Part shown: positions 4,610 through 38,831 of the stretch, one piece after another
Numbering within the stretch: the first letter of the stretch is position 1
How the letters are laid out: the number at the start of each line of letters is the position of its first letter
Virus record (IMG/VR): IMGVR_UViG_3300036781_000289
Span: 1-48,087 of that record
Strand: one strand, 5' to 3'
Origin: a virus
Length of the DNA: 48,087 nucleotides
Notes under the pieces: model-generated
Told to the model about the DNA's origin: nothing
What the model saw: the letters and a program-made list of their open reading frames with translations, nothing else
Database searches by the model: none
Position numbers and translations under genes: made by a program

Positions 4610-4872
4610 TATTTCCATCAACATTACCAATTGAAAACGTTTTTTGGATTGCTTTTTGCATCGGTTTCGCCGGTTTTATTTTGGGTATGATCGTTTTCGA
4701 TCGGACCTCACGCGATTACGAAACAGATTTCGGCGTGTTATGCACCAAAACCCGACATTTCTTCCCAACACCGGAACGGATCAAAGGTAAATTGTCCGAA
4801 GAAGTGTATTGTTTTTGTGGCAATGAGGTCATGGAACTTAACCCAAAAGGTTATTACATAATCAAAGAATGA
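4606..4872 (+). CDS. Membrane protein with N-terminal TM, 88 aa
   Basis: Residues about 11-31 (VFWIAFCIGFAGFILGMIVF) form one clear membrane span. The following soluble part has Cys at CTKTRHFF and VYCFCGNE, which could form a small metal site. ATGA overlaps with both neighbours. Function unknown. Confidence 0.65.
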   Translation: MIFPSTLPIENVFWIAFCIGFAGFILGMIVFDRTSRDYETDFGVLCTKTRHFFPTPERIKGKLSEEVYCFCGNEVMELNPKGYYIIKE

Positions 4873-5513
4873 TAATTGAAAAAACAAGTCCGTCTGACCT
4901 CGAAACGTATTCGTATTGTCCGTATTGTTGGTTTCTCAAACATGACGGTCATCGCCAGGCACCGACCGAAGCCATGAAGTTCGGCACTCGACTTCATTCT
5001 GCAGTAAAGAAATATCATCGTGACGGTGAATTTCTCTTTGCCGAAGATTTGCAAGAATATCTTGATTTGTATATGGAACAAAACACGCGCGATTTTGAAA
5101 CGTGCGAAGAAATGTGGGAAGTACCGCTTTTTGATACTGGCATTTTATTCCGGATGAAACTTGATCTTGTCAAAGACGATGCACTTACCGAACATAAAAC
5201 GTCAGCGCGTCCGTATTCGCAAGCATATGTCGACACACTTCGCCAATTGACTGCATATTCGTGGGCATGGGGTCAACTTTATTTGCAACGTGAAAAAGAA
5301 ATAAAAGTTAATGTTTTTTTAACAAATCCGCAACCGGAAGATGAATTGATCCAAACTTTTATAACGCATCGAACGGCTGCCGATTGGCAAATTTGGGAAC
5401 AATGGGTGCGTTTGCAATTGCGCGGGATCGAACAAGACGAATTTGAACCAAACCCGAAAGGCAGGTTTCACAATTTTCCAGAGTGTCCTTTTTACAAAGA
5501 AACTGAACTATGA
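4869..5513 (+). CDS. PD-(D/E)XK nuclease (RecB/Cas4-like), 214 aa
   Basis: Shows the ordered signature of the PDDEXK_1 family: an N-terminal S-x-x-D-L-E-T-Y-x-x-C-P strand/helix, F-G-T-R-L-H-S-A (motif with catalytic His), R-M-K-L-D-L-V (motif II Asp), T-E-H-K-T-S (motif III E-x-K) and the Q-x-x-x-Y helix (RQLTAYSWAW). Cys at CPYC (17, 20) and ECPFYK near the end could allow a Cas4-like Fe-S cluster, but the spacing is incomplete. Probably an exonuclease working with the Rad52-like annealing protein. Last gene of the compact early operon. Confidence 0.85.
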   Translation: MIIEKTSPSDLETYSYCPYCWFLKHDGHRQAPTEAMKFGTRLHSAVKKYHRDGEFLFAEDLQEYLDLYMEQNTRDFETCEEMWEVPLFDTGILFRMKLDLVKDDALTEHKTSARPYSQAYVDTLRQLTAYSWAWGQLYLQREKEIKVNVFLTNPQPEDELIQTFITHRTAADWQIWEQWVRLQLRGIEQDEFEPNPKGRFHNFPECPFYKETEL

Positions 5514-6181: not shown

Positions 6182-6223
6182 CCGCTGATTGATTTCCTAC
6201 AAGGGGTTGGTCAGCGGCCTTTT
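6182..6223 (+). terminator. Probable Rho-independent terminator
   Basis: Stem CCGCTGA (6182-6188) with TCAGCGG (6211-6217), followed by CCTTTTATT. The loop is long (22 bases) but lies just after the stop at 6175. Confidence 0.55.
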
Positions 6224-6312
6224 ATTGGAAAAAACGAAAAAATCGTATAACCTCTAGTAAAAACTCATTGCATCGACAATCAGTTTTGTCTTATGTGGAC
6301 AACTTGTGCATA

Positions 6313-9635: not shown

Positions 9636-10412
9636 ATGACTTTTCGCACCTCACGTTATAATGGTTTCGCGAGAAAAACTCCAGTTGTAAAGTCCGAAGT
9701 TTCAGTTGTAAGATCAGTTGTAAACAAACCGAGTGCAATTGTAAAGTCATTGTCAACCAAACGACAAACAATTGTAAACCAACCCGATTTCACACCACAA
9801 GAACAAGAGATCATCGATGCCGCCGAGAAAGAATATGCCGCATTAAAAGTGTCCCGAAACCTGGTCAAAAAGAATGGCCGGCCGGAAAAAATTAACGGTT
9901 TCATTGTTCTGAAACTTATTGGTGCTTTTCAGTCCGGAATGACTGTCGGAATTGCTTGTCAATACGCGGGAATCGGACGAACTGCATTTTATCGCCACAT
10001 GAACGAGGACGAGGACTTTCGGAACATCATCACGGATGCTCAGGACTGGCTAAAAGTGACAGCTGGTGACAGACTCAAGACGATCATTCAAACCGGTGAT
10101 GAACGAGCAGCTGCACCGCTTATCCGTTGGTACTTGGAACGCGCAATGCCCGACACGTATGGTAGTATAAAACCAGACCCCAACAACGGGCCAAACAATT
10201 ACTTCTTCATAAACAATGGACGCTTTGAATCAATTACAAAACAATCCGGAATTGAAAACGCTGATCCGTCACAACTTCTTGAGGCTATTGAGGCAGAACA
10301 AAACGTGGACAATGGAACAGAAGAAAACGGCGCTGCATCAATTCATTCTCAAGAAAATGGGAGTGAACATACCGAAGAAGTCGATTTGTCACAATCATCA
10401 AGCACCATTTGA
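9636..10412 (+). CDS. terS: Terminase small subunit, 258 aa
   Basis: Central HTH (SGMTVGIACQYAGIGRTAFY, about residues 100-120) with the downstream helical oligomerisation region (DRLKTIIQTGDERAAAPLIR) typical of phage small terminases of the Terminase_2/HTH type. It recognises the packaging site and recruits TerL. The N-terminal 60 residues are basic and encode repeated V-V-K/I-V-N motifs arising from five TTGTAA repeats in the DNA. The last 66 codons overlap the TerL reading frame. Confidence 0.85.
   Translation: MTFRTSRYNGFARKTPVVKSEVSVVRSVVNKPSAIVKSLSTKRQTIVNQPDFTPQEQEIIDAAEKEYAALKVSRNLVKKNGRPEKINGFIVLKLIGAFQSGMTVGIACQYAGIGRTAFYRHMNEDEDFRNIITDAQDWLKVTAGDRLKTIIQTGDERAAAPLIRWYLERAMPDTYGSIKPDPNNGPNNYFFINNGRFESITKQSGIENADPSQLLEAIEAEQNVDNGTEENGAASIHSQENGSEHTEEVDLSQSSSTI
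9682..9779 (+). repeat. Five short direct repeats (TTGTAA core) inside terS, candidate pac region
   Basis: [CA]A[GA]TTGTAA[AG] occurs at 9682, 9703, 9715, 9736 and 9769. Many pac-type phages carry the TerS binding site in or beside terS. The repeats are in frame, so coding constraint could contribute. Confidence 0.4.
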
Positions 10413-11925
10413 TTTTGTGGCAGCGGCATTTTTTGAATCTTATGATACTATTGTTGCTCTCGCTAATCGAAACGGCGGCAAAACCATTGATTTTGCTATT
10501 CTTGCTATTCTGTTTGCTTTGGCAAATCCGGATTGCGAGGGTGCAAACTTTGGTGCAATTGAAAACCAGGCTCTACGTTGTTATGGTTACATCAAAAAGT
10601 TCCTCGAAGGTGACAAAAGTTTATTTGAAGTGGTTGACGGTAAGATCACATTGGGCAAAACTGTTTTCAAGAATAAATCGTGGCTTCAAGTCCTCATCGC
10701 AACAATGGCTGGGGTAAATTCACCGCATCCACAAAAATTGATCGCCGATGAAGTTGAACTAATCCCCTGGTTTATATTACAAGAAGCGTTGTCGATGCCG
10801 AATTCAAAAAATGACATCAAAGCAACAACGATTCTCGGATCAACACGAAAGTTTGCTCATGGTCCGATGCAACGATTGATCGATGACAATATGGCGCATC
10901 TTTTCTCCTGGTGTGTTTGGGAAACTATGGAAGCCTGGCCAAAAGATGTCATGCTGCAACAACAAATTCTTCAAACGTTTACAAAGAAATTTGGCGATAC
11001 CGAACTCATACCAAAAGACAAATCGCAATTCAACGGATTCTTCAAATGGCCGGATTTGTTAACGCGTGTGCGTATGCTTGATATAGAAACGTTCTTATCA
11101 CAATGGATGTGTCAACGTCCGGAATCAACCGGTTTAATTTACGCACGATTTGACGAAATACTCAACGTTGATCGAAATTGGGTGCTTGATCCAAGTTTGC
11201 CAATACAAATTTGGGAAGATTTGGGTTATGCGAAAGATCATCCGGACGTTGTTTTGTTTGTGCAAGTTGATGTCGTCAAACAACGATTCGTTATTTTTGA
11301 TGAATTGTATTTGCGATATAAAGATTGCCGGATGATTCTTATAGACGTTATTCAAAAGCTCAAAGAACACGGTCTTGTTGCCACTGAGTTGGACACTGAC
11401 CCCACTGAATTAACGAAAGCGCGTGTTCTTACTCCTTACTTCGCAAAGATCGCCGGTTGGGTTTGTGATTATCACAACGTTTCAGAAATTGCAGAACGTC
11501 AGAATACCGGTGTTCCGATTTGGGATAAAGTACGAAAAGAAGAAAACGATGAAGTGAACGAAATCTATAAACAGGAAAATTACATTCCACTTGTTCGCGC
11601 GTTCGTTGACAATCGATCATTGCAAATCACACCAAACGTTATCAATCTTCGTGAAGAATTTATGACGTACTCGAATAAGAAACAACAAGACGGCCGGTAT
11701 TCCGACGTTGCCGAGAAATTCAATGATAATGGTCCGTCAGCTGTCGCGTTTGGTTGTGTTCGGAATTGGCCGTCACTTGCATACATGCCGTTTGATGCTG
11801 ATTCCGGAAAGATTGACGAAGAACCGACACGCACAATTCGACAAAACGATGAAGAAGTGGAAATTGTTTCACCGGCACAATACATTCGATCCGGTTTGAC
11901 TGATGAAATCCCCGAGCACTTTTGA
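10216..11925 (+). CDS. terL: Terminase large subunit (packaging ATPase/nuclease), 569 aa
   Basis: ATPase: Walker A-like ANRNGGKT (residues 83-90), Walker B IADEVE (about 176-181) and the GSTR coupling motif. Nuclease: EDLGYAKDHPD strand, then ELDTDPTE and later acidic positions. Length is normal for TerL. The start at 10216 gives a 197-base overlap with terS; M33 at 10312 is an alternative, but the upstream residues (MDALNQLQNNPELKTLIRHN) look like a normal TerL N-terminus. It pumps DNA into proheads and cuts concatemers. Confidence 0.92.
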   Translation: MDALNQLQNNPELKTLIRHNFLRLLRQNKTWTMEQKKTALHQFILKKMGVNIPKKSICHNHQAPFDFVAAAFFESYDTIVALANRNGGKTIDFAILAILFALANPDCEGANFGAIENQALRCYGYIKKFLEGDKSLFEVVDGKITLGKTVFKNKSWLQVLIATMAGVNSPHPQKLIADEVELIPWFILQEALSMPNSKNDIKATTILGSTRKFAHGPMQRLIDDNMAHLFSWCVWETMEAWPKDVMLQQQILQTFTKKFGDTELIPKDKSQFNGFFKWPDLLTRVRMLDIETFLSQWMCQRPESTGLIYARFDEILNVDRNWVLDPSLPIQIWEDLGYAKDHPDVVLFVQVDVVKQRFVIFDELYLRYKDCRMILIDVIQKLKEHGLVATELDTDPTELTKARVLTPYFAKIAGWVCDYHNVSEIAERQNTGVPIWDKVRKEENDEVNEIYKQENYIPLVRAFVDNRSLQITPNVINLREEFMTYSNKKQQDGRYSDVAEKFNDNGPSAVAFGCVRNWPSLAYMPFDADSGKIDEEPTRTIRQNDEEVEIVSPAQYIRSGLTDEIPEHF

Positions 11926-38150: not shown

Positions 38151-38167
38151 AGTAATCGTTTTTGAAA

Positions 38168-38467
38168 ATGAGTAAAAATGCACTTCAACGACTTCTCAAG
38201 GCTGGATATACCGTGAAAACCCTCCAGGAAACATTTGATGCACTTCCGAAAGGTCTTTTTGTTCCAGATGATGAAAAAAATGCAATACACTTAAAGCGTA
38301 TCAGGACTGTCTTTATGTTGCGGATTGACGAGAAAGGTTATACATTAACTTGGCTTGTGAAAGATGAACAAAAAGACCCTTCAATTATTCATCAAACAAC
38401 AAATAAGGACATTTTTGAAACATTGACAAATATGTTGTTATTTACGAAGTCATGTAATGCGTTTTGA
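38168..38467 (+). CDS. Hypothetical protein, 99 aa
   Basis: ATG at 38168 chosen. Sequence MSKNALQRLLKAGYTVKTLQ has an HTH-like opening, then a beta hairpin (IRTVFMLRIDEKGYTLTWLV). No family assigned. Overlaps the following disrupted gene by 11 bases. Confidence 0.65.
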   Translation: MSKNALQRLLKAGYTVKTLQETFDALPKGLFVPDDEKNAIHLKRIRTVFMLRIDEKGYTLTWLVKDEQKDPSIIHQTTNKDIFETLTNMLLFTKSCNAF

Positions 38468-38682
38468 GAAGTTAAAAATTCTTCGATAGGCAAATCATCA
38501 TCTTCCTACTTTTTCCTACCCCGTTTATTATCTGGCGACTTTCTGAAATATTTGAAAATCCTGCCGCTTATCCGAGTCGCACGGTCCCATTCAAGATGCC
38601 TCTTGAATATGCACTTTACAATATCGGCGGCATTGCTCTAATTTTATCAAAAATCACAAAGCGCGCCTATCGCCCAGCGTAG
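38457..38682 (+). pseudogene. Membrane-protein gene disrupted by +1 shift in an A5 run
   Basis: The ATG frame (MRFEKLKILR) stops at TAG 38487. Moving one base forward in the AAAAA at 38474-38478 opens 67 further codons: FFDRQIIIFLLFPTPFIIWR, then LSEIFENPAAYPSRTVPFKM and LEYALYNIGGIALILSKITK, ending at TAG 38680. The shifted product would have two membrane helices and good sense throughout, and the shifted frame has no usable start of its own. An indel (real or assembly error) or a programmed shift is possible. More CGC/CCG codons than the neighbours. Confidence 0.5.
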
Positions 38683-38693
38683 TACGCGCCGTG

Positions 38694-38764
38694 TGAGAGT
38701 GACGGGAATCGAACCCGCGAGAGCGATTTTGAAGATCGCCGGCTTACCATTAACCTACACTCCC
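38694..38764 (-). tRNA. tRNA with anticodon UCA (reads UGA)
   Basis: On the minus strand: acceptor GGGAGTG (38764-38758) with CACTCTC (38701-38695), one G-U; D stem GGTT/AGCC with loop AATGGTA; anticodon stem GCGAT/ATCGC closing loop CTTCAAA, whose anticodon TCA is at 38732-38730; variable loop TCTC; T stem GCGGG/CCCGT with loop TTCGATT; discriminator A at 38694. CCA is not encoded. Identity unresolved (Gly-like short D-loop and 4-nt variable loop, or Trp). Too small and regular for selenocysteine tRNA. TATAAA sits 6 bases upstream of the tRNA 5' end. Confidence 0.88.
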
Positions 38765-38769
38765 ATGAT

Positions 38770-38775
38770 TTTATA
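38770..38775 (-). promoter_or_regulatory. -10 box (TATAAA) of the tRNA gene
   Basis: Minus-strand TATAAA directly follows a strong hairpin and precedes the tRNA by about 5 bases. The -35 is poor. Confidence 0.45.
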
Positions 38776-38808
38776 CCAAAAACGGACGCTTAAGCACGTC
38801 CGTTTTGG
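38776..38808. terminator. Strong hairpin between tRNA and RBS-like element
   Basis: CCAAAAACGGACG (38776-38788) pairs with CGTCCGTTTTGG (38797-38808), with one bulged A. May act as terminator or processing signal. Confidence 0.55.
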
Positions 38809-38813
38809 CCAGC

Positions 38814-38831
38814 GAAAGGAGGTGACCTTTC
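38814..38831. other. RBS-like sequence inside a small hairpin, no gene behind it
   Basis: GAAAGG (38814-38819) pairs with CCTTTC (38826-38831), and the whole contains AAAGGAGGTGA. No start codon follows at usable spacing. The complementary strand reads TCACCTCCTTTC, like the 16S rRNA 3' tail. Confidence 0.45.

Follow-up and report, generated by a model that had tools for sequence, protein, structure and literature searches.

The DNA analysed was a stretch of 48,087 bases from a virus, a small uncultured phage, and is referred to here as the window. A single tRNA was reported in it by ARAGORN (38693–38764, minus strand, anticodon TCA); almost all genes of the window lie on the other strand. 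The tRNA gene and its surroundings contain the following features.

38694–38764, minus strand: tRNA gene of 71 nt with anticodon UCA and A73, CCA not encoded (ARAGORN, Rfam and folding).
38730–38732, minus strand: anticodon UCA (tga on the plus strand) in the loop CUUCAAA, read from the sequence.
38770–38778, minus strand: TGG-TATAAA, read by eye as an extended −10 promoter-like element, with about 6 nt between its end and the 5' end of the tRNA; a candidate promoter of the tRNA's own.
38776–38809, either strand: strong hairpin GCCAAAACGGACG/CGUCCGUUUUUGGU, which separates the tRNA from the gene that comes next on the plus strand; a possible bidirectional terminator.
38659–38690, minus strand: hairpin and T-run downstream of the tRNA; a candidate terminator of the tRNA transcript.

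The Rfam covariance model RF00005 matched 38694–38764 (minus strand) over all 71 model positions at 61.2 bits (E = 6.3e-11), above the gathering score of 29 bits used as the threshold for the class. Folding by minimum free energy gave the complete cloverleaf (−24.3 kcal/mol, z = −2.8), with all four stems intact and the T-loop and D-loop conserved. A first-pass annotation had described a tRNA folding in four arms with an anticodon reading UGA and had proposed covariance scoring as a check; both the fold and the anticodon were confirmed. ARAGORN, Rfam and folding together place a UCA anticodon on an intact tRNA, as in an opal suppressor. Its A36-A37-A38 is the usual context for i6A37 modification. 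The ARAGORN label 'SeC' was given because of the anticodon only. Selenocysteine tRNAs have about 90 nt, a long variable arm and an 8-bp acceptor stem, and this identity was rejected for a molecule of 71 nt with a 7-bp acceptor stem and a short variable loop. A remnant of an integration site was also rejected, the tRNA being complete and no integrase being found in Pfam; the same search (67 window proteins, 15 families) gave no release factor and no aminoacyl-tRNA synthetase.

The upstream hairpin (38776–38809) lies in a segment, 38765–38830 on the minus strand, that folded at −23.3 kcal/mol (z = −3.7). The TGG-TATAAA element directly follows this hairpin on the minus strand and was not reported by the consensus promoter scan. 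In the downstream hairpin a terminator-like site was located at 38675–38659 (0.7 expected by chance), with a fold of −19.1 kcal/mol (z = −1.66). Judged by these elements the tRNA looks like a small transcription unit of its own, antisense to the end of the late operon, and it is intact and probably expressed. The first-pass annotation had considered a suppressor tRNA made late; this is not supported, given the antisense orientation of the tRNA to the late operon, the adjoining terminator-like hairpins and the promoter-like element of its own. No HDV-like (theta) ribozyme was found next to the tRNA at a permissive Rfam threshold.

On the plus strand a 69-codon open frame (38476–38685; KFFDRQIIIFLLFPTPFIIWRLSEIFENPAAYPSRTVPFKMPLEYALYNIGGIALILSKITKRAYRPA, then a stop) ends just before the tRNA. 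It has a protein-like, membrane-bound look and no ATG, GTG or TTG start ahead of a mid-frame ATG; it may be a truncated gene. A programmed −1 frameshift joining the gene at 38162–38467 to this frame was rejected, since a TAA at 38473–38475 intervenes in frame.

The isotype of the tRNA was judged from alignment score and published determinants. By global alignment among about 300 distinct tRNAs of the fetched loci, the nearest were a gut-phage tRNA labelled Val(UAC) with a glycine-like body, the UCA tRNA of Agrobacterium phage Atu_ph07, the Gly(UCC) of Lactobacillus phage phig1e and an unannotated Gly(UCC) of a second gut phage. BLAST agreed on the nearest full-length relatives, and overall similarity to tRNA-Gly was found with both methods. 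Bacterial tRNA-Gly(UCC), for example that of phig1e (L042:1505–1575), resembles the window tRNA in overall sequence, short D loop, T arm and acceptor stem core. Among the determinants of bacterial GlyRS (U73, G1-C72, C2-G71, G3-C70, C35 and C36; PMC9976931), G1-C72, G3-C70 and C35 are kept in the window tRNA, while U73 has become A73, C2-G71 has become G2-U71 and C36 has become A36. Because of these three losses the tRNA may be poorly charged. Dimeric GlyRS is often paired with tRNAs bearing A73 (PMC3990555), so glycine charging would still be possible in some hosts. In place of the bacterial Trp determinants G73 and A1-U72 the tRNA has A73 and G1-C72, and there is a partial match to the eukaryal/archaeal Trp set at A73, G1-C72, G5-C68, C35 and A36 (PMC9976931). 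The amino acid had been called ambiguous in the first-pass annotation, with Gly- and Trp-like features and discriminator A, and the glycine body, A73 and incomplete determinant sets bear this out. The Trp-like combination A1-U72/G73 occurs in most Mycoplasma-type UCA tRNAs and in 10 of 33 phage UCA tRNAs; G1-C72 with A73 is a minority type among the latter (4/33). By its sequence the window tRNA most likely descends from a glycine tRNA(UCC) whose anticodon has since changed to UCA.

Several other tRNAs were recorded in the course of these comparisons. A gut-phage tRNA in MT837139 (L045:1497–1570) has a glycine-tRNA body with anticodon UAC (Val according to ARAGORN) and is another anticodon-shifted glycine-like phage tRNA. 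The phig1e tRNA-Gly(UCC) is complete and unannotated, with xis and int immediately downstream of it. A contig binned as Rhodobacteraceae, with 12 tRNAs and possibly phage, carries two almost identical UCA tRNAs separated by about 940 nt (L063:5275–5347 and 6217–6289). Glycine-type UCA tRNAs were seen on the short contigs L053, L074 and L080, binned as Elusimicrobia, Parachlamydiales and Alphaproteobacteria; these are perhaps misbinned contigs of bacteria that read UGA as glycine, or of their phages. The phage contigs L030 and L032 have Trp-like UCA tRNAs and frames that become much longer if UGA is read (the longest of L030 from 263 to 855 codons), and are probably recoded phages.

No close relative of the window phage was found in INPHARED. 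Relatives among viral contigs were found through the terminase only; scans with the portal, the capsid, the tRNA-side protein and the helicase gave no relative. The contig L123, with a terminase 74–75% identical to that of the window, contained no tRNA, and the distant terminase relative L124 carries a tRNA Met/Gln. Two of the genes whose stop codons were compared with those of their L123 orthologues are as follows.

10216–11925, plus strand: terminase large subunit with a TGA stop; the L123 orthologue ends at the same residue with TAA.
4869–5513, plus strand: PD-(D/E)XK nuclease ending TGA-TAA; the L123 orthologue has the same length and also ends in TGA.

The window's portal gene stops at TAA and that of L123 at TGA; the terminase small-subunit-like gene stops at TGA in both, and the head protein at TAA in the window versus TAG in L123. 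Since TGA and TAA interchange at the same orthologue ends, UGA is not a sense codon. Internal TGA is absent from the large conserved genes of the window, and the TGA-containing or TGA-rich ORFs obtained with code 4 are shadow frames or run-ons. A recoded phage (code 4 or 25) was therefore rejected, and the window phage keeps the standard code with UGA as a true stop, in agreement with the earlier view that it is not simply UGA-recoded. The frame of the terminase large subunit shares about 200 nt with the gene before it, both in the window (9636–10412 and 10216–11925) and in L123 (3888–4523 and 4315–6036); either the overlap is conserved or the true start lies downstream.

Stop codons were then tallied by gene class, as the first-pass annotation had suggested.

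12459–34762, plus strand: late structural module from portal to tail genes, with 20 TAA, 4 TAG and 1 TGA stops (PHROGs/Pfam and tally).

By PHROGs the module contains portal, protease, capsid and tail genes. The 52 called genes outside it end in TGA (28), TAA (22) or TAG (2), and the split is real (Fisher p = 1.1e-5); among genes of at least 100 aa, TGA stops number 1/21 in the late module versus 12/24 elsewhere (p = 9e-4). The remark that late structural genes end mostly in TAA or TAG, with few TGA, thus holds. The same split was absent in lambda (11/19 versus 20/36), phig1e (7/21 versus 4/27) and Flavobacterium phage 11b (6/33 versus 4/27), and is therefore no general phage rule, although three controls are few. 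A 4-nt ATGA overlap with the next start, the standard form of translational coupling, was present at 13 of 29 TGA stops and was concentrated outside the late module. The first-pass statement that most overlapping early genes stop at TGA (ATGA) stands as far as UGA is a true stop and these 13 overlaps are concerned; the split as such has a rival explanation in the sequence context of the starts.

Shine-Dalgarno sites were scarce, preceding 3/25 late and 5/50 other starts. A TAA within 12 nt upstream of the start was found at 18 of 25 late genes (72%), 22 of 50 others (44%) and 13% of random positions, and half of the late upstream TAAs are not stop codons. Late stops may thus be TAA because they sit inside a TAA-containing start context. 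Contexts such as TAACTATG were frequent at the starts of the late module (12459–34762), and TATTCT/TATACT-like elements lay immediately upstream of some starts in the window and also in L123. Leaderless or non-SD initiation in the window phage is suggested. Backup TAA or TAG codons within 5 codons followed 10 of 26 TGA stops versus 5 of 44 other window stops (p = 0.014). This contrast is weak: the rate at TGA stops (38%) is not clearly above that of other phages (23%, 16/70), and the stops it is compared with in the window have exceptionally few backups. The distance from a UGA stop to the next TAA or TAG had a median of 7 codons and a maximum of 154.

The closest published case is Agrobacterium phage Atu_ph07 (Attai et al. 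2018), which has a UCA suppressor tRNA and 267 UGA stops among 714 ORFs; its authors likewise read that tRNA as a UGA suppressor (PMC6102473). The Atu_ph07 tRNA (L019:5562–5636) shares with the window tRNA the UCA anticodon, the acceptor start GGGAGUG, G1-C72, A73 and a near-identical T arm, and UGA is a normal stop in both phages. In contrast to the window phage, Atu_ph07 is a 490-kb jumbo phage with 33 tRNAs, and its UCA tRNA encodes CCA and differs in the D arm and anticodon stem. Nor is TGA avoided in its structural regions sampled: 15 of 43 genes, chosen by annotation, size and position, end in TGA, like the genome average. A search of viral contigs for the GGGA..GT acceptor pattern with UCA gave no UCA tRNA besides that of Atu_ph07. 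Suppressor tRNAs without visible stop reassignment are also known from Zeta crAss-like phages, for which counter-defence or host weakening have been offered as reasons and backup stops were noted by the authors (PMC12386605, 2025); these are gut phages of 150–190 kb with many tRNAs, and the clear case, ctE7s22, has a CUA (amber) anticodon, unlike the window tRNA. The Absconditicoccaceae phage RSA-ATP1 is small (39 kb) and has a glycine-type tRNA-Gly-sup(TCA), but it is recoded to match its host, with UGA inside 60% of ORFs (PMC13059738), whereas UGA is a stop in the window. Code-4 phages with tRNA-Trp(UCA), as far as they are cited in PMC10746230, also carry a UCA suppressor, infect standard-code hosts and have been proposed to control late genes with it; their tRNA is Trp-type and UGA lies inside their genes, whereas the window has a glycine-like body and no in-frame UGA.

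The reading to which we give about an even chance is that the intact tRNA suppresses UGA (opal) stops weakly to moderately in a standard-code phage. It would compete with host release factor 2 at UGA, so that a fraction of ribosomes would insert glycine or tryptophan and go on to the next stop. Tails of short to medium length would be added to UGA-ending phage proteins, mostly early or non-structural and often ATGA-coupled, and likewise to UGA-ending host proteins, and ATGA coupling would be disturbed. The late structural genes, with their UAA or UAG stops, would for the most part escape.

An idle or decaying tRNA, captured as a glycine tRNA, drifted at the anticodon and acceptor end and barely charged, so that UCA has no function, is unlikely, if less so than the other alternatives. 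The loss of three GlyRS determinants and the absence of bacterial A1-U72/G73 are in its favour, and in Zeta crAss-like phages suppressor tRNAs that have no corresponding recoding are described as apparently inactive (PMC12386605). A useless tRNA would nevertheless be expected to decay in a 48-kb genome, whereas this one keeps four intact stems, conserved T- and D-loops, 61.2 bits and promoter- and terminator-like elements nearby, and shares its GGGAGUG start, G1-C72 and A73 with the UCA tRNA of Atu_ph07. The first-pass annotation had instead proposed a timed switch, in which late build-up of the suppressor turns off or modifies early genes that end in UGA and are ATGA-coupled, and UAA/UAG late genes stay accurate. 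The strong split by module, missing from the three control phages, and the position of ATGA coupling mostly outside the late module would fit, but the tRNA is antisense to the late operon, Atu_ph07 has no such split, the L123 portal gene stops at TGA, and TAA belongs to the start context, especially in late genes. The ATGA overlaps, the TAA start context and the stops of Atu_ph07 and L123 all weaken a suppressor-based reading of the split, and we consider the timed switch quite improbable. Equally improbable in our view is its broader form, that a 48-kb standard-code phage splits its stops by time class, with ATGA-coupled UGA for early genes and UAA/UAG for late ones, and that its one opal suppressor, of glycine descent and rewired at the acceptor end, acts as a switch at the level of translation, damping or extending early and host proteins with no gene recoded.

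Slightly less probable again is a host that itself reads UGA as sense, for example as glycine as in Absconditabacteria/Gracilibacteria, with a 'code-11 compatible' phage whose tRNA joins the host UGA-decoding pool and whose UGA ends run to backup stops. The glycine-tRNA body would suit such a host, one phage of which carries a tRNA-Gly(TCA) (PMC13059738); the code-11-compatible phages predicted for these hosts lack in-frame TGA by avoidance and carry backup stops (PMC10746230), and such stops are somewhat closer after TGA in the window. Against this, TGA is the stop of 28 of the 52 genes outside the late module, several of which would be extended by 50–154 codons, the sole published patescibacterial phage with such a tRNA has UGA within 60% of its ORFs (PMC13059738), and the G2-U71/A73 acceptor end is unlike the GC starts of the Gly(UCA) tRNAs in L053, L074 and L080. 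No host link was found, the scan of 99 Bacteroidota genomes for host identification also giving nothing. Least credence is given to a spare Trp decoder, in which U34 wobbles to G, so that the tRNA decodes UGG in addition to UGA and supplies Trp if host tRNA-Trp is limiting or cut by an anticodon-nuclease defence. C35-A36 is kept, A73, G1-C72 and G5-C68 agree with the Trp identity set of eukaryotes and archaea (PMC9976931), and bacterial Trp features are present in the 10 phage UCA tRNAs mentioned above; yet the window tRNA lacks the G73 and A1-U72 preferred by bacterial TrpRS, its closest body is a glycine tRNA, and TGG, at 13 per thousand codons of the genome, is not used to an unusual extent.

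Similar cases have been published (Atu_ph07 and the Zeta crAss-like phages), and the window is a further example, not a new phenomenon. What is new is that these features occur together: the phage is small, its only tRNA has a glycine body changed at identity positions, and UGA stops are almost absent from its late module. Suppressor tRNAs in non-recoded phages are a recognised puzzle (PMC6102473, PMC12386605), which is easily testable in a small phage that has a UCA tRNA as its only tRNA and a late module nearly devoid of UGA, since clear predictions can be made for named stops. Were the split in stop codons causal, it would represent control through stop-codon choice without recoding; if it is not, the case would show how easily phages retain anticodon-shifted tRNAs.
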